The translations under genes were made by a program, and so were the position numbers. From an uncultured Pelagibacteraceae bacterium (GTDB taxonomy: Bacteria; Pseudomonadota; Alphaproteobacteria; Pelagibacterales; Pelagibacteraceae), in contig CACKBP010000007.1 of assembly GCA_902598315.1 (NCBI GenBank), positions 1 to 62,520 on the forward strand: a DNA stretch of 62,520 bases. The letters run 5' to 3'. Below are positions 1 through 59,663 of the stretch, one piece after another; the stretch's first letter is position 1, and every line of letters begins with the position of its first letter. Under the pieces are notes generated by a model. The model searched no databases. It saw nothing but the letters and a program-made list of their open reading frames with translations, and had not been told where the DNA came from.

Positions 1-506
1 TACTTACAAAATCTTTTGGCTACAATTTACTTAAAGGAAACAATCCATCATTTAAAGTAGAAGGAGATTATAAACATATTGAAGAAATAAAAAAATCTGA
101 AAATAAAAATATAAAATCTGACAATTATTATGAAATTAATTTAGATAACTTATTTAAAAAAAAAGCGATAAGTTTCATTTTGGAAGATCCATTTTCATAT
201 ATTAAATTTTATTTCATAAAAGTTATATCTTTCTTATTTATCGACTTTAACTCGACTTATCCTTATTATTACAATATTTTTCATTTATTGCCTAAAATTT
301 TACTTGCCTTGACAAGTTTTGTAGGAGCTGTACTGGCAATTAATAAGAAAGGTTTTTTTCAGTTTTTATCTTTGTATTTTTTTCTAAACATTTTTCTATT
401 CTCGATATTTTTTATTTTACCGAGATACAGCCTAATATTATTACCGATTCAACTTTTGTTAGTGATTGAATTTGCTAAATATTTAAAAAGAAAGTTGATC
501 AATTAA
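1..506 (+). CDS. Membrane glycosyltransferase, GT39/ArnT-like, C-terminal part (5' end outside window)
   Basis: The reading frame is open from base 3 to the stop at 504-506, so this is the last ~167 residues of a larger protein. The visible part has a hydrophilic stretch of about 55 residues followed by four hydrophobic segments, ending with an R-Y-S-L-I-L-L-P type helix and a basic tail. That pattern resembles the end of polytopic GT39-type transferases, which move sugars from polyprenyl phosphates outside the cytoplasmic membrane. This is family-level inference, because the catalytic loop lies outside the window. A TTG at 180 could be mistaken for a start, but the upstream frame stays open. 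The 3' end overlaps the convergent epimerase gene by 24 bases. Confidence 0.6.
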   Translation, partial: LTKSFGYNLLKGNNPSFKVEGDYKHIEEIKKSENKNIKSDNYYEINLDNLFKKKAISFILEDPFSYIKFYFIKVISFLFIDFNSTYPYYYNIFHLLPKILLALTSFVGAVLAINKKGFFQFLSLYFFLNIFLFSIFFILPRYSLILLPIQLLLVIEFAKYLKRKLIN

Positions 507-10291: not shown

Positions 10292-11169
10292 TGAGTAAAA
10301 TAAATATCTTTTGCTTTGGTTTTGGCCAAGTTGCAGAAGGTTTTATTAATAAATTAATTCAAGAAAAAAAAGATTTTGATTTAAGCATTACTTCTAGACA
10401 AGAAACTCATCAAATAGAATTAAACAATTTTAAAATAACATCATATCACTTTACTGATAATAAATTTGATAACTCTATAGATAAAAAATTAAAGGAAGCA
10501 AATTATATTTTAATTTCAATTCCACCAATAGAAGGCGAAGATATAGTTGCTAAATACTTAGATAAAAATCTACAAGGTATTACAAATTGTAAATGGATCA
10601 CTTATTTATCGGCTACAAGTGTATACGGAGACCATAAAGGTGAATGGGTAAATGAAAACAGTACTACTAAACCAACTTCTCCAAACGGGTCAAGCAGACT
10701 AGCAGCAGAAAATATTTGGAAAAAAATATCTAATAAACATAAATACCCGTTGCAAATTTTTAGATTAGCTGGAATATACTCTAAAGAGTTTAATATTTTA
10801 AAAAGATTACAAACAGGTAAATTACAAGTCGTAGATAAAAAAAATCATTTTTTTTCAAGGATTCATGTTGAGGACATAGCTAATATTTTATTCAAATCTC
10901 TTGATAATTTTAAAAATAATGAAATTTATAATATTTGTGATGATAAACCTGCCTCACAGAGTGATGTAGCAGCTTATGGCGCAAAATTACTCAATCTGAA
11001 AAATCCAAATACGGTAAAACTTGAAGAAGTCGAAAATGAAATGTTACGAAACTTTTATAAGGACTCTAAAAAAGTAGACAATAAAAAGATGAAAACCTTT
11101 TTTAAATATAATTTGAAATTTCCAACATATGTAGAGGGGTTAGATTATATCTTTAACAACAATCTCTAA
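10291..11169 (+). CDS. NAD(P)-binding SDR/epimerase-like protein, YeeZ type
   Basis: A 292-residue Rossmann protein. FGFGQVAEGF (residues 9-18) is a nucleotide-binding turn of the single-gene-epimerase/YeeZ kind, and SATSVYGDH (about 107-115) is the catalytic Ser strand, but no clear YxxxK follows (the region reads SSRLAAENIW). It may therefore bind a nucleotide without the standard SDR chemistry. It starts on the last base of the gltB stop (TAATG), so it belongs to the glutamate synthase unit, although no functional link is known. The 3' end overlaps the convergent hydrolase by 30 bases. Confidence 0.7.
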   Translation: MSKINIFCFGFGQVAEGFINKLIQEKKDFDLSITSRQETHQIELNNFKITSYHFTDNKFDNSIDKKLKEANYILISIPPIEGEDIVAKYLDKNLQGITNCKWITYLSATSVYGDHKGEWVNENSTTKPTSPNGSSRLAAENIWKKISNKHKYPLQIFRLAGIYSKEFNILKRLQTGKLQVVDKKNHFFSRIHVEDIANILFKSLDNFKNNEIYNICDDKPASQSDVAAYGAKLLNLKNPNTVKLEEVENEMLRNFYKDSKKVDNKKMKTFFKYNLKFPTYVEGLDYIFNNNL

Positions 11170-11931: not shown

Positions 11932-13089
11932 ATGACTACTAAAATAAATGTTTTGCAAGTTATACCTAAACTTGGATATGGCGGCGCAGAGACCGGTTGT
12001 TACGATATTGCTCATTACTTAGCCGAGCAAGATTGCGGTTCTTTTATAGCAACATCTGGAGGTGAGCTTCTTAAATATATTAAAAAAAATAAAGTAAGAG
12101 TTTTTAAGATTCCAGTTCACTCAAAAAATCCAATATTTATTTTTCTTAATATAATATTATTATCTTTCTTAATTTTATTTAATAAGATTAATATTGTTCA
12201 TGCAAGAAGTAGAGCTCCAGCATGGTCATGTTACTTTGCATGCATATTAACAAATACTCACTTTGTTACAACCTTTCATGGCACTTATAATTTTAAAAGT
12301 AAATTAAAAAAATTTTACAATAGTATAATGCTAAGAGCTAAATTGACTATAGCAGGCTCAAATTTTATTTTTAGCCATATAAATGAAAATTACAGTGAGT
12401 ATCTTAATAAAAAAAAAAAATTAAGAGTAATCTTTAGAGGTATAAATATTGATTACTTTAATCAAAAAAATATTTCAATTTTAAAACAAGAAAGATTAAA
12501 AAAAGAATGGGGTATTGAACCAAATAAATTTATCTTTCTTTTGCCTGGGAGATTGACTTACTGGAAAGGTCAAGAAAAATTTATAGAGTCATTAAACATT
12601 TTAATAGAAGATTATAGTTTTACAAATTTTCAGGCAATACTACTAGGATCTGATCAAGGCAGAAAGGTTTATACTAAAAAACTACTAAGTTTGATTGAAA
12701 GATATAGTTTGACAAAAAAGATAAAATTTATTCCTCATTGTAAAGAAATGCCCTTAGCATACTCTCTTGCTGATGTAGTTGTATCTGCCTCAACCGAGCC
12801 AGAAGCTTTTGGAAGAGTATCTGTAGAGTCTCAAGCAATGGGCAAACCGATAATAGCCAGTAATTTAGGCGGTTCAAAAGAAACAGTTTTAAATAAAAAA
12901 ACAGGTTTTTTATATAAACATGATGATCCTAGAGAACTTGCTAAAAATTTAAATACTGTTATTCAATTATCTCAAGAAGAGTTGAAATTAATTGGAAACG
13001 AGGGTAGAAAAAACGTAACTAAGAAATTTGATGTTGACGTAATGTGTGACTCAAATCTAAGAGAATATAAAAAATTGTTTAAAAATTAA
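11932..13089 (+). CDS. Glycosyltransferase family 4 (GT-B)
   Basis: A retaining glycosyltransferase of 385 residues when started at the ATG at 11932. The frame extends upstream to a TTG at 11911, but those codons run into the palindrome and lack family similarity. The N-terminal GGAET turn, PGRLTYWKGQEKFIESL in the middle and EAFGRVSVESQAMGKPIIASNLGG near the C-terminus (the E-x7-E donor-sugar motif) are diagnostic for GT4. It probably builds LPS or another surface glycan. thrS starts on the last base of its stop codon, tying a glycan gene to the head of a translation operon. Confidence 0.88.
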   Translation: MTTKINVLQVIPKLGYGGAETGCYDIAHYLAEQDCGSFIATSGGELLKYIKKNKVRVFKIPVHSKNPIFIFLNIILLSFLILFNKINIVHARSRAPAWSCYFACILTNTHFVTTFHGTYNFKSKLKKFYNSIMLRAKLTIAGSNFIFSHINENYSEYLNKKKKLRVIFRGINIDYFNQKNISILKQERLKKEWGIEPNKFIFLLPGRLTYWKGQEKFIESLNILIEDYSFTNFQAILLGSDQGRKVYTKKLLSLIERYSLTKKIKFIPHCKEMPLAYSLADVVVSASTEPEAFGRVSVESQAMGKPIIASNLGGSKETVLNKKTGFLYKHDDPRELAKNLNTVIQLSQEELKLIGNEGRKNVTKKFDVDVMCDSNLREYKKLFKN

Positions 13090-25943: not shown

Positions 25944-27392
25944 TTAGTTTCTCCAAAATGACGGAAAGAATAGAACAAGTACTGCAAATAGCTCTAATCT
26001 TCCGAGTAACATCCCCGCTGATAAAATCCATTTTGATAAATCTGGAATATCTTTATAATTTCCATTTGGCCCTATTATGTCTCCTAAACCAGGTCCTACA
26101 TTGGAGATTGCACTAGCTGCTCCAGAAATTGAAGTTATAAAATCTAATCCACTAATTGAGAGAAGCATAGCTATTATCAAAAAGATAAATAAAAAAGTAA
26201 AAATGAAAATAATTACTGAATTGATAAAACTGTCTGAAATTTTCTGATTATTATATTTGGTAATAATAACGCTATTAGGAGAAATTAGTTTCTTTATCTG
26301 ATTTTTTAAAAATAAAAGCAACATTTGCAACCTAAATATTTTTATTCCACATGCCGTAGAGCCTGCGCAGCCGCCTATGAACATTAGTAGTAAAAAGAAT
26401 ATAAGTGAAAATTTTCCCCATAATCCAAAATCATCAGTTACATACCCTGTCCCTGATAGAATCGAAATAACGTTGAATGAGGAAATTCTTATTTTATCGA
26501 ACAAATTTCCCTCGTAGTTTATGAACAATAAATAAAGAAACATTACTATTATTGAAAAAAATAATAAATAAATTAGACCTTTAATTTGAACATCTTGAAA
26601 AAAAACCTTTCTATTTCCTTGGGCAAATTTTAAATAGGAAATAAAAGGTATACTACCCAATATAATAAACATACTTGCAACTATTTCTATGTTGGAATTT
26701 TTAAAAAAACCAATAGAGTCATTATGAGTAGAAAAACCACCAGTAGCTATTGTGGTCATTGAGTGACTAATACTATCAAAGATTGTCATACCAAAAATCC
26801 AATAAAAAAAACCACATAGAAATGTCAATATTATATAAGTAGAAATAATTATTGTAGCGACCTCAAAAGTACGTGGTAAAATTTTCTCAGTGCCGTCTGG
26901 ACCTTCCATCTTAAATAGCTGCATCCCCCCAACTTTTAATAAGGGCAAAATAGTAATTGCCATCACCACTATGCCGATTCCACCTAGCCATTGCATTATG
27001 GCTCTCCATAACAAAATACTTTTAGGACTGTTATCTAAGTCAGATATGATAGTTGCTCCTGTCGTGGTAATACCTGACATACTTTCAAAGAATGCTTCGC
27101 TAAAACTAAAATCTTCAGCAGATAATAAGAAAGGCAAACTCCCAAAAATTGCCACCATAATCCATGCTAAAGATGAAAATAAAAATGTCTGCCTTAAGTT
27201 TAACTTAAATTCTCGCTCAAGATTAGCTAAAATAAAAAGAATCCCAATAAAAATTGTGACAAATGATGAAGAAATAAAACTATGGCTGCCCTCATTCAAA
27301 ATTATTTGAAGAGTATAAGGAGCCAGCATTGCCACTCCTAAAACGATCAATAATATACCTATTAAAAAAAATACAGTTTTGTTTGTAGCCAT
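25944..27392 (-). CDS. trkH: Trk-type potassium uptake channel subunit
   Basis: A 482-residue integral membrane protein of the SKT superfamily. The four pore loops are readable: SGITTTGAT, TIATGGFST, ILSGTGYVT and ISNVGPGLG, each with the conserved selectivity-filter glycine. It forms the K+ pathway and normally works with the cytosolic NAD-binding regulator TrkA, which is not encoded in this window. The length matches TrkH/TrkG. It is the first gene of the minus-strand run and diverges from lysS over 92 bases. Confidence 0.94.
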   Translation of the reverse strand: MATNKTVFFLIGILLIVLGVAMLAPYTLQIILNEGSHSFISSSFVTIFIGILFILANLEREFKLNLRQTFLFSSLAWIMVAIFGSLPFLLSAEDFSFSEAFFESMSGITTTGATIISDLDNSPKSILLWRAIMQWLGGIGIVVMAITILPLLKVGGMQLFKMEGPDGTEKILPRTFEVATIIISTYIILTFLCGFFYWIFGMTIFDSISHSMTTIATGGFSTHNDSIGFFKNSNIEIVASMFIILGSIPFISYLKFAQGNRKVFFQDVQIKGLIYLLFFSIIVMFLYLLFINYEGNLFDKIRISSFNVISILSGTGYVTDDFGLWGKFSLIFFLLLMFIGGCAGSTACGIKIFRLQMLLLFLKNQIKKLISPNSVIITKYNNQKISDSFINSVIIFIFTFLFIFLIIAMLLSISGLDFITSISGAASAISNVGPGLGDIIGPNGNYKDIPDLSKWILSAGMLLGRLELFAVLVLFFPSFWRN

Positions 27393-38676: not shown

Positions 38677-39597
38677 ATGGCATTAAATATAATTTTCATG
38701 GGTACACCCAAATTTTGCCTTCCAATTTTAAATGCAATAAAAAAATCTGAACATAATATTATTGGGATATACACCCAGCCTCCTAAAAAAAAGGACCGAG
38801 GGCAAAAAATTGATTTAACACCTGTGCATAAATTTGCAATTGAAAATAGCATTAATATTAGACACCCTGAAAATCTAGATACAAACGAAGAAATAAATTT
38901 TTTTAAAAAAAAAAAACCTGATGTTATTTTAGTTGTAGCTTACGGTAAAATAATACCATCTAAATTATTAGAAATTGAGAATACTTTATTCTTAAATATT
39001 CATGCCTCATTATTACCTAAGTGGAGAGGAGCTGCTCCAATACAAAGGTCTATTATGAATCTTGATAGAGAAACAGGTGTATCAATAATGAAAATAATTC
39101 CAAAATTAGATGCCGGTCCTGTTATGATGAAATCAAAAGTTAAAATTTCAAAAGACACTAATTTTGAAGACTTAACCTTGCAATTATCAGAGATAAGTTC
39201 AAAATTAATTTTGCAATCACTAGATCGCGTTGAAAAAGGAAGTGTGAAATTCGATAAACAGGATGAGTCAAAGATTTCATACGCAAAAAAAATTACAAAA
39301 AAAGAGACAAAAATTATTTGGAGCCAGAAAGCTAAATTTATAATCGCGAAGATCAATGCATTAAGTCCAACTCCTGGTGCCTGGTTTTCGCTAAAAGGCT
39401 CAAGGATTAAAGTTATTAAGGCTGTCGAGGTTAAAGGATCTGGTAATCCTGGTGAAATAATTGACAGTAAATTTGTTATAGCATGTTCAGAAAATGCCAT
39501 TCAAATTTTAGAGCTTCAAAAAGCAGGCAAAAGAAAAATGATAATTTCAGAATATTTAAAAGGAAATACTTTAAATGTAGGTTTTAATGTACAGTGA
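38677..39597 (+). CDS. fmt: Methionyl-tRNA formyltransferase
   Basis: A 306-residue enzyme that formylates Met-tRNAfMet using 10-formyl-THF. The catalytic core has Asn107 and His109 in NIHASLLPKWRGAAPIQ and Asp145 in LDAGPVM. The C-terminal OB-like domain that grips tRNA starts near INALSPTPGAWF. Order def-fmt-truA is seen in several proteobacteria. Its end overlaps truA by 11 bases. Confidence 0.97.
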   Translation: MALNIIFMGTPKFCLPILNAIKKSEHNIIGIYTQPPKKKDRGQKIDLTPVHKFAIENSINIRHPENLDTNEEINFFKKKKPDVILVVAYGKIIPSKLLEIENTLFLNIHASLLPKWRGAAPIQRSIMNLDRETGVSIMKIIPKLDAGPVMMKSKVKISKDTNFEDLTLQLSEISSKLILQSLDRVEKGSVKFDKQDESKISYAKKITKKETKIIWSQKAKFIIAKINALSPTPGAWFSLKGSRIKVIKAVEVKGSGNPGEIIDSKFVIACSENAIQILELQKAGKRKMIISEYLKGNTLNVGFNVQ

Positions 39598-40339
39598 CAT
39601 CTTTAATTACTTAATTAAAATTGAATACGATGGTACCAAATTTGTAGGATGGCAATATCAAAAGAATGGTAAGTCGATTCAGGAGACTATAGAAAAAGTA
39701 CTTTCTAAAATATTAAAAGAAAATATTAAGATAATAGGATCTGGTAGAACTGATAAAGGTGTTCATGCTATTGGACAATATGCTAATTTTAAACTTGATA
39801 AAAAAATATATAATAAAAAAAAATTTTTAAATGCTCTAAATTTTTTTTTAAATAGAGACTTGATTTCAATCATTGATTTAAAAAAAAAAAAAATTTCTTT
39901 TAACTCGAGATATGATGCAAAAGAAAGAATTTATGAATACAGAATTATTAACAGAGAGGGAGGTTTATCATTAAATAAAAATAAAGCATGGCATATTAAA
40001 CGTAAAATGGATTTAGCAATTTTAAAAAAAGGAGCAAAATCGCTAATAGGCAATCATGATTTCTCTACTTTTAGAGCCTCTTCGTGTTCAGCAAAATCAC
40101 CTGTTAAAAAAATGAATACAGTGCAAATAATCAAAAAAGGAAAAGAAATCTCAATAGTTTTTAAATCAAAATCTTTTTTACAAAATCAAGTAAGATCAAT
40201 GGTCGGTTGTTTAGTATATTTGTCATGTGGTAAATGGGACTTAAAGTATTTTGATAATGTTTTTAAATCTAAGAAAAGATCAAAGTGTGCACCGCCAGCA
40301 CCTGCATGTGGTTTATATCTAAAAAATGTTAGGTATTAA
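39587..40339 (+). CDS. truA: tRNA pseudouridine(38-40) synthase A
   Basis: A 250-residue pseudouridine synthase that acts in the anticodon stem-loop. Asp56 in GSGRTDKGVHA is the catalytic residue. IEYDGTKFVGWQYQ at the start and SFLQNQVRSMVGCLV near the C-terminus are family signatures. The start overlaps fmt by 11 bases. The stop codon is interleaved with that of the convergent GT2 gene in one TTAA (40336-40339). Confidence 0.96.
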   Translation: MYSDIFNYLIKIEYDGTKFVGWQYQKNGKSIQETIEKVLSKILKENIKIIGSGRTDKGVHAIGQYANFKLDKKIYNKKKFLNALNFFLNRDLISIIDLKKKKISFNSRYDAKERIYEYRIINREGGLSLNKNKAWHIKRKMDLAILKKGAKSLIGNHDFSTFRASSCSAKSPVKKMNTVQIIKKGKEISIVFKSKSFLQNQVRSMVGCLVYLSCGKWDLKYFDNVFKSKKRSKCAPPAPACGLYLKNVRY

Positions 40340-43503: not shown

Positions 43504-44155
43504 TAATCTCCTTTAAAAATTTTGCCAAGTTATCAGTCTTATAATTAATGAAATCCTCATCTGAATATTTTGCTGCCCATGGTTCATCATTTTTAATCCA
43601 AACAGTTTTCATACCTAATTCGTAAGCTGGCTTTAAATTTCTTGCAATATCTTCAAAGAATATACAATATTGTGGCTCAATTTTGTAATTTTCTACCAAT
43701 TTTTTGTAAGGTTGTTTCGAAGGCTTTGGAATAAATTCACAATCTCTAATATCAAATATTCCATCAAAAAGCTTATCTATTCCAATTCTTTTCGTTACAT
43801 TAAGAGCATGAGCTCTAGAGCCATTAGTAAAAATTATTTTTTTTCCATCTAATTTTTTAATTTCATCTTCTAAATCTTTATCTTTATCTAAAAAACTAAG
43901 ATCTACGTCATGAACAAACTCTAAAAATTCATCAGCATCAATTTTATGGTTTTTTATCATACCGTTTAAGGTTGTATTATATTCTTGAAAATAGTTTTTT
44001 TGAATTTTCCTAGCTTCTTCAAGATCAACGTTTAATTTTTCAGAGATAAATTTTGACATTTTTTTATCTACTTGATCAAAAACTTTAGTAGCTCCATCGT
44101 AAAGAGTGTTATCTAAGTCAAATAACCAAAATTTTATATTTGTTAAGTCTTTCAT
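43490..44155 (-). CDS. HAD-family phosphatase, pyrimidine 5'-nucleotidase (SDT1-like)
   Basis: A 221-residue HAD hydrolase. DLDNTLYDG (Asp13 and Asp15 nearby) is motif [11 protein letters not shown] is motif II, the Lys of [10 protein letters not shown] is motif III, and [22 protein letters not shown] is motif IV. The LFDLDNTLY start and [10 protein letters not shown] belong to the pyrimidine 5'-nucleotidase/SDT1 branch, usual in alphaproteobacteria near argB or dapD. The exact substrate is uncertain. It overlaps the argB stop by 4 bases. Confidence 0.85.
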
Positions 44156-45022
44156 TCTCTTATTAATGTTCCAGATCCCTTATCAGAAAAAATTTCATGT
44201 AAAACTGAGTGCGGTTTTCTTCCATCAAGAATTACAACACCTCTTACTCCATTTTGCACGGCATCAACACAATTTTCTATTTTCGGTATCATACCACCTT
44301 GAACAACCTTCCATTTAATTAAATTTTCAAGATCGAAAGGTTTGATTTCTGATATTAATTTTTTCTGATCATCATACACACCTTCTACATTTGTCATTAG
44401 TATCAGCCTTCTTGATTTCAGTTTTTTTTGCAATTGCACTTGCTGCGGTATCACCATTAATATTATATGTTTGATTTTGTTTACCCAGACCTAAAGGAGC
44501 TATAATTGGAATTTTATTTTGATTTAAAGCATTTTGAATTAAATTATCATTTATTTTATTTGGCCTTCCAACAAATCCAAGCTCTTTTCTCTCTGGTTCA
44601 ACTTCTATCACGTTGTCAGTCTTAGTATGAAAAGAAGCTGCTTCTGAGCCTAATTTCTTTAGAGAAATTGCAATATCTTTGTTAAAATCAATCAAAACCT
44701 CTTCAACAGTATCAATTATATTTTTATCAGTAACTCTTAGGCCATTAATAAATTTAGATACAATCTTTTTCCTATCCAGCTCTCTTTTGATCCTTGGACC
44801 ACCACCGTGTACTACAATAATAGATAAACCCAATTTATTAATAACATTTATATCGGATATAAAATTATTGAAGACATTTCTATCTATAAGAACATTTCCC
44901 CCATACTTGATTACAATTTTTTCTTTTTTGTATTTTTTTATATATTTTTGTACTGTATTAATATCAGGAGCTTTGTCAGGCCAAAATTTTTTTATCTCCT
45001 CTAGAGAAATATTCTTCGACAT
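44152..45022 (-). pseudogene. argB: N-acetylglutamate kinase, reading frame interrupted at an A8 tract
   Basis: The second enzyme of arginine synthesis. About 200 residues (MSKNISLEEI to NINGDTAASAIAKK, with the VVHGGG phosphate loop) are read in one frame and the last 89 (LKSRRLILMTNVEGVYDD to GTLIRE) in another. The two parts join exactly at a run of eight A in the mRNA (T run at 44422-44429). Seven A would give one normal ~289-residue protein. Everything else is intact, so it is either a one-base sequencing error, a recent mutation, or a site rescued by polymerase or ribosome slippage. The gene abuts yidC upstream. Confidence 0.9.
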
Positions 45023-58358: not shown

Positions 58359-59663
58359 ATGACAATAAATATTAAAAATTTCCTTAAAGATAAATCTAAA
58401 CTATCTAAAATGGGAGAGTTTCAAAGTTTAAAACAAATCGAAGGTCTTGAGATGTCAGCTACCTCAGCTGATTTATATGGAGATGGCAGAGATGATCTTG
58501 CTCTGTTTTATTTTACAAAGGGAGCTAATTATGCATCATTAACGACTAGTAATAGTATAACTTCAGAATTTATCCCTTGGAATAATAACTCGCACAAAAA
58601 AATTATAAAAGGTTTAATGGTAAATACAAAAAATGCAAATACGTTTACCGGTAAGCAAGGAAAGGAGGGTATTGACACTTTAGCAAAAAATTTATCTAGA
58701 ATTTTAACTATTAAAGAGTCTAAAAGTCAAAAAGGCACTAACGAGACTGTTAAAATAAAGGATTTAATTTTTGCCTCTACAGGAGTAATTGGCGAAGAAT
58801 TTCCAACAGAAAAAATTAAAGATAGACTAACAGATTTAGTTGATAAACTAAGGAAAGATCACAACAAAATGTATTGGCTCAAAGTGGCTTCATCTATAAT
58901 GACTACTGATACAAAACCTAAAGTTGCCTACGAGGAAATTATTGTTGGAGATGAACTAATTAGAATCTGTGGCATTGCAAAAGGATCAGGTATGATTGCA
59001 CCTAATTTGGCAACTATGCTTTCTTTTATATTCACAAATGCAGATATAAATTCGAACTTGTTAAAAACTTTGTTAAAAAGAGCCGTAGCAAATTCTTTTA
59101 ATGCAATTTCTGTAGATAGCGATCAGTCAACTAATGATATGGTTTCAATATTTTCTACCAGATTTTTAAAAATTGGCCAGAATTTATCGTTAAACGATAA
59201 AGTGATACAAAAATTTGAATTAGCTCTAAAAAAATTATGTCTTAATTTAGCAAAACAAATTGTAGTTGATGGCGAGGGAGCAAAAAAATTTCTTACTATT
59301 AACGTTATTAATGCTAAATCTTTAGGAAGTGCAAAAAATATTGCTTTCTCTGTTGCAAATTCTCCATTAGTAAAAACTGCTGTAGCAGGAGAGGATCCTA
59401 ACTGGGGAAGAATAGTAATGGGGATAGGAAAATCAGGAGAAATAGTAGATCAAAAAAAATTGAAAGTAAAAATTGGCAATTTTATTGTAGCAGAAAATGG
59501 AAAGGTATCCGAAAGTTATAATGAAGAAAAATTAAAAGAGTACATGCAATGGGACTCGATAGAAATCGAAATTAATCTAAAACAAGGTAACGATGCCTTT
59601 AAATGCTTTACATGTGATTTTACGCATGATTACATTGATATTAATGCAGATTATAGAAATTAA
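58359..59663 (+). CDS. argJ: Glutamate N-acetyltransferase / amino-acid acetyltransferase (ArgJ)
   Basis: A 434-residue self-cleaving Ntn-type enzyme that recycles the acetyl group from N-acetylornithine to glutamate. Thr219 in KGSGMIAPNLATM is the autocleavage site and nucleophile of the beta chain. VNTKNANTFTG and VANSPLVKTAVAGEDPNWGR are conserved. Together with argB at 44152 it shows that arginine synthesis is encoded, which makes the argB frameshift stand out. It abuts the DUF1178 gene with no spacer. Confidence 0.95.
   Translation: MTINIKNFLKDKSKLSKMGEFQSLKQIEGLEMSATSADLYGDGRDDLALFYFTKGANYASLTTSNSITSEFIPWNNNSHKKIIKGLMVNTKNANTFTGKQGKEGIDTLAKNLSRILTIKESKSQKGTNETVKIKDLIFASTGVIGEEFPTEKIKDRLTDLVDKLRKDHNKMYWLKVASSIMTTDTKPKVAYEEIIVGDELIRICGIAKGSGMIAPNLATMLSFIFTNADINSNLLKTLLKRAVANSFNAISVDSDQSTNDMVSIFSTRFLKIGQNLSLNDKVIQKFELALKKLCLNLAKQIVVDGEGAKKFLTINVINAKSLGSAKNIAFSVANSPLVKTAVAGEDPNWGRIVMGIGKSGEIVDQKKLKVKIGNFIVAENGKVSESYNEEKLKEYMQWDSIEIEINLKQGNDAFKCFTCDFTHDYIDINADYRN

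Follow-up and report, generated by a model that had tools for sequence, protein, structure and literature searches.

In the insect endosymbionts Buchnera and Blochmannia, homopolymer frameshifts may be corrected by transcriptional slippage, and for some genes this has been shown. The excerpt of that report describes eight genes with such frameshifts in one endosymbiont (PMC3017870). E. coli RNA polymerase produced 10% deletion-type rescue on poly(T8) and none on the poly(A) runs covered in the excerpt of PMC6260861, in which about eight A is the lower detection limit of slippage by this polymerase. In E. coli transcription, deletions outnumbered insertions by 921 to 72 (PMC5574713, excerpt). 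Homopolymer runs are indel hot spots, and tolerated frameshift indels are described in the 8A repeat of a laboratory-evolved gene (PMC3812077, excerpt). Deinococcus IS elements suggest productive slippage even on eight A, and the same excerpt considers AT-rich genomes that do not avoid nine A or T unlikely to slip there (PMC1088944). A benchmark of a single-cell workflow gave 3.0 indels per 100 kb, a rate that would permit about 2 in 62.5 kb (PMC8443664, excerpt). A search of open-licence papers for Pelagibacter transcriptional slippage or SAR11 homopolymer frameshifts did not bring up the argB case described below.

The window, which is the whole stretch of 62,520 nucleotides analysed here, is part of a SAR11 genome with 18 contigs, 939,115 bases in total and a completeness of 82.99%. 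Its argB gene, for N-acetylglutamate kinase, is broken at a run of eight A. Read literally, the split gene would suggest arginine auxotrophy or recoding in SAR11 and, if true, rescue would extend slippage from insect endosymbionts to highly abundant ocean bacteria. We take the SAR11 host to be free-living and streamlined, unlike Buchnera and Blochmannia. The locus is like the cases in these endosymbionts in that a single poly(A) indel interrupts an otherwise intact and constrained gene of an AT-rich genome. However, according to the excerpt of PMC3017870, eight genes are affected in one genome there and some of the frameshifts are common to species, whereas the argB break is one in about 187 testable places and is unshared, and its tract is only eight bases long, a length that is not avoided in coding sequence. 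As a single private one-base indel in what is probably a single-cell assembly, the break also resembles the indel errors in the excerpt of PMC8443664, although the rate in the window's genome and its relatives is lower than that benchmark. A third likeness is to the spontaneous frameshifts caused by replication slippage on poly(A), since 46 of 90 distinct relatives have A7 at this site, but unlike an ordinary slippage mutation it would inactivate a conserved single-copy gene of a pathway that is otherwise mostly kept. We favour an ordinary homopolymer indel of an already-known kind, and among these an artefact.

The argB locus and its two reading frames

The argB gene lies on the minus strand, where it runs from 45022 to 44152 and is read in two frames. 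The switch takes place at a T8 run of the plus strand (44422-44429), which is A8 in the coding strand. The features are as follows.

44372..45022, minus strand: upstream argB ORF of 216 amino acids, with about 200 ArgB residues followed by 16 out-of-frame residues and TGA (ORF list, profile match)
44422..44429, minus strand: A8 tract, site of the frame change in argB (window sequence, tblastn)
44152..44457, minus strand: downstream argB ORF of 101 amino acids from an internal ATG, of which about the last 89 are ArgB (ORF list, profile match, tblastn)
44152..44155, minus strand: ATGA, the normal argB stop overlapping the start of the next gene (sequence, ORFs, families)
58359..59663, plus strand: argJ, intact, of the same pathway as argB

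The NCBIfam profile for ArgB, TIGR00761, has 231 positions, of which the upstream ORF covers 2-169 and the downstream ORF 163-231. Singly, the ORFs score 138.6 and 58.4 bits, respectively, and miss the cut-off of 151.3 bits, and the two taken together match the whole profile. Searches by tblastn with the ArgB parts placed residues 1-198 and the last 89 residues in different frames that adjoin at the tract, and the 289-residue ArgB of five out of five syntenic relatives aligned as 1-205 and 197-289 in two frames. The split is real in the assembled sequence. The ORFs, the profile ranges and the junction agree with the earlier note, which had placed a split at this A8 tract, and the complementary profile matches bear out its view that both parts are well conserved. 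Since runs of at least eight A or T are very frequent in the window, the tract itself is unremarkable and only the broken frame is notable.

Translation in the broken frame stops at 44372, about 217 bases before the normal end of argB. The next gene encodes a HAD phosphatase similar to TIGR01993 and is followed by dapD and dapE, as identified by family profiles. A real frameshift could disturb the overlapping genes downstream too. The ORF on the other side of argB is presumably yidC. A second copy of argB elsewhere in the assembly was considered and rejected, as a search of the genome's contigs found none.

Relatives, assembly quality and constraint

Two sets of loci were compared. The first, L002-L030, comes from the 29 anonymous relatives that ranked best among 50 matching genomes, the window's own included, of 61 searched; the second consists of the best 80 of 218 named loci found. 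The sets overlap, and their 109 loci represent 90 distinct argB sequences. All 109 have an uninterrupted argB in a single frame. Among 169 genomes of the genus, argB was matched in 144 and gave no match in 25. The gene was uninterrupted in 137 of the 144, cut by contig ends in five (G177, G003, G009, G088 and G092), represented only by a weak paralog in one (G026), and internally broken in one, the window's own. Within this collection of one genome per species, the frameshift was shared by none of the 109 other loci and by none of the 137 genomes of the genus with an argB clear of contig ends, and is therefore private to the window's genome among those examined. Privacy alone is no proof of an artefact, as none of the compared relatives belongs to the same species; the highest DNA identity to the window's genome was 87%. 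At the position of the tract, the 90 distinct relatives carry A7 (46), A6 (32), A8 in frame (2) or shorter runs (10), and in the two with A8 the frame is kept with ATT as the next codon. The comparison of tract length in close relatives, which the earlier note had put forward as a check, went against a conserved recoding site, with every relative that has an argB across the tract in frame. As a separate observation, contig C20 of G009 carries the same partial argB twice and in opposite orientations, at 2-451 (plus) and 10567-11016 (minus), an arrangement that looks like an inverted amplification chimera.

Frameshifts were counted by comparing 462.5 kb of the window's genome reciprocally with five relatives (1.15 Mb). 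In the window's genome 198 proteins were matched and about 187 places were testable, and argB was the only convincing internal frameshift among them. About 526 places in the five relatives yielded no convincing comparable break. Six flagged cases, all at gene starts, had stops 8-11% into the match or changed frame once the first 25-44 residues had passed. They were set aside as start-site effects, five of them on position alone; the sixth, C2:49142-49567 of the window's genome against G002, was inspected in sequence, and its remainder has a start of its own, MSGYV. Flagged cases at gene ends in other comparisons were treated likewise, and C6:5-817 of the window's genome, which lies at a contig start, shows stops at 7-8% and has 56% identity to the relative, was discounted as distant. 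Stops within 6% of either end of a match were not counted, so breaks near gene ends would be missed. As argB alone was convincingly broken inside, the break stands out in these assemblies, and one such frameshift in about 187 places does not support a generally poor assembly.

The names of the nearest relatives point to a single-cell assembly for the window's genome. Among the best 80 of the 218 named loci, 77 bear AG- or AH- isolate names, which we take to denote single-cell genomes, and two are called SAG-MED; some titles among the nearest named loci begin with "MAG:". These nearest named loci belong to Pelagibacteraceae, which places the organism in SAR11. Since the roughly 526 places in relatives and 187 in the window's genome yielded just the argB break as a convincing case, such assemblies seem to have an error rate well below the benchmark in the excerpt of PMC8443664.

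Changes on the gene's own branch were counted against a reference made of those L002 codons that are also the majority codon in the ten closest loci; these ten rows include duplicates (L002 and L075 have equal values, as do L004 and L076). There were 46 synonymous and 15 non-synonymous changes in the upstream 198 codons, and 15 and 1, respectively, in the downstream 89, in keeping with the earlier note's statement that the gene has no other damage. Of the sites in the downstream part, about 209 are non-synonymous and 58 are synonymous, so several-fold more non-synonymous than synonymous changes would be expected without constraint. The counts indicate purifying selection on the downstream part for nearly the whole branch. 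Since this part was constrained until recently, the indel would be young, artefactual or rescued; the pattern is compatible with a very young mutation, a rescued frameshift and an error, and does not discriminate among them. The C-terminal 89 residues of ArgB are also more conserved than the first 198 in pairwise comparisons (dN 0.005-0.017 versus 0.033-0.067).

The genes argG, argC, argF and argJ scored above their family cut-offs and have no internal stops, the TGA listed for argC being its own stop codon; argJ is intact, as the earlier note had said. A profile search of the window's assembly gave no match to argH. Of 41 genomes searched, 34 have this gene at scores over the cut-off of its family, and the window's genome is among the seven that do not. 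When 7 kb of G034 DNA around argH was used as the query, only 24-1723 matched the window's genome (G000), on contig C10 up to 27109. The matching region of G034 ends about 1 kb before argH, and C10 itself ends at 27137, 28 bases past the end of the match. The absence of argH is explicable because C10 stops before the place where the gene is expected. Probably argH lies in an assembly gap, and its loss along with its neighbours is not favoured over this. Loss of the arginine pathway is unsupported.

Poly(A) runs and the origin of the break

As an indirect test of proneness to slippage, A runs in ORFs were compared with 60 synonymous-codon shuffles per genome in the window's genome (409 ORFs), G034 (384 of 385, one with an unknown base being dropped) and G002 (398). 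Exact A8 runs were over-represented in all three, with 391 observed versus 321 expected in the window's genome (1.22-fold), 406 versus 327 in G034 (1.24-fold) and 377 versus 329 in G002 (1.14-fold). The A10 value of the window's genome (0.77 of expectation) and the A11 value of G034 (0.53) were low, and the other A10 and A11 values were 0.90-1.03. Only runs of at least 12 A were clearly depleted in all three genomes (0.47, 0.40 and 0.44, respectively). In the stretches of these three SAR11 genomes, coding sequence thus tolerates A runs of up to about 9-11, with clear avoidance from 12 upwards.

These values bear on the possibility that a real A8 frameshift is tolerated, with RNA polymerase or the ribosome skipping one A and some full-length ArgB being made as in Buchnera and Blochmannia, which we regard as quite unlikely. 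It is highly doubtful that this free-living SAR11 bacterium, with a true A8 frameshift in its sole argB, makes enough full-length ArgB by loss of an A or a +1 slip. Rescue needs the loss of one A. Its ribosomal variant would be a +1 slip of tRNA-Lys on AAA-A, which is possible in principle; a programmed -1 ribosomal frameshift was rejected, as the -1 frame reads AAC TGA, a stop, directly past the tract. A single indel inside a poly(A/T) tract with the rest of the gene intact was found here, as would be looked for in a rescued gene; the genome is AT-rich with many A runs, the downstream part is under strong constraint, argB is single copy in the assembly and the pathway is mostly intact. Against this, the frameshift occurs in no examined relative, and the tract length is not depleted from coding sequence. 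A strongly slippery A8 should be avoided in genes; it is not avoided, and strong slippage on it would corrupt many messages, as 278 of the 409 ORFs of the window's genome hold A8 or longer. The lack of deletion rescue on poly(A) in the excerpt of PMC6260861, together with the over-representation of A8, also weakens the rescue by poly(A) slippage that the earlier note had raised. Nevertheless, the detection limit near eight A in that excerpt, and those of PMC3812077 on the 8A repeat, PMC5574713 on the excess of deletions and PMC3017870 on the endosymbiont genes, leave room for rescue at a low level, and the excerpt of PMC1088944 on Deinococcus points the same way. A recoding reading of argB is possible but not favoured.

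We consider it rather probable that the break is a one-base homopolymer insertion due to an amplification or assembly slip and not a functional recoding site. One surplus A would have entered the tract during single-cell DNA amplification or read assembly, that is, in the laboratory and not in the cell. The break, its privacy among the examined genomes, the intact remainder of the gene and the lack of another argB in the assembly are observed. The frame is kept in all 109 other loci and in the 137 genus genomes with an uncut gene, a homopolymer of seven, as found here in 46 of the 90 distinct relatives, is the usual setting for indel errors, argG, argC, argF and argJ are intact, and the 1 non-synonymous versus 15 synonymous downstream changes are as expected for a gene intact in the cell. 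As counterpoints, the error rate counted in such assemblies seems lower than that in the excerpt of PMC8443664, and the assembly type is itself deduced. Recent replication slippage in the sampled cell or strain could instead have inactivated argB without efficient rescue, causing arginine auxotrophy and possibly polar effects downstream, an account that we judge unlikely, if less so than rescue. The A7 run of many relatives and the hot-spot behaviour of homopolymers (PMC3812077, excerpt) agree with it, as does the failure to find argH in the assembly; that argB is the one convincing case among the roughly 187 places suits a single event better than poor assembly, and a null mutation would be young, given the constraint downstream. 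However, the pathway is otherwise kept (argG, argC, argF and argJ), the end of C10 at 27137 can explain the absence of argH, the assembly has no second ArgB, and a free-living cell would rarely be expected to carry a null mutation in a conserved gene. That the two ORFs are two working polypeptides of a split kinase, the second starting at the ATG at 44457, is hardly credible: the conservation of both parts and the ATG of the second speak for it, but argB is unsplit in all examined relatives and the second ORF opens with 10-12 residues that come from ArgB DNA read out of frame. The error that the earlier note had named as the main alternative, in sequencing or assembly, remains the leading explanation, with amplification added; the degrees of confidence given for these readings are judgements and not computed values. 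Since the break is a private one-base event among the examined genomes, neither auxotrophy nor recoding should be inferred from the assembly alone.

The avoidance of runs of at least 12 A suggests the length at which claims of slippage become plausible in SAR11. The window holds three in-frame runs of this kind, each inside an ORF: an A14 at 39880-39893 and A12 runs at 38905-38916 and 12409-12420, in ORFs that we take to be truA, fmt and a glycosyltransferase, respectively. They are better candidate sites for slippage than argB because runs of this length are depleted about twofold in the three SAR11 genomes.
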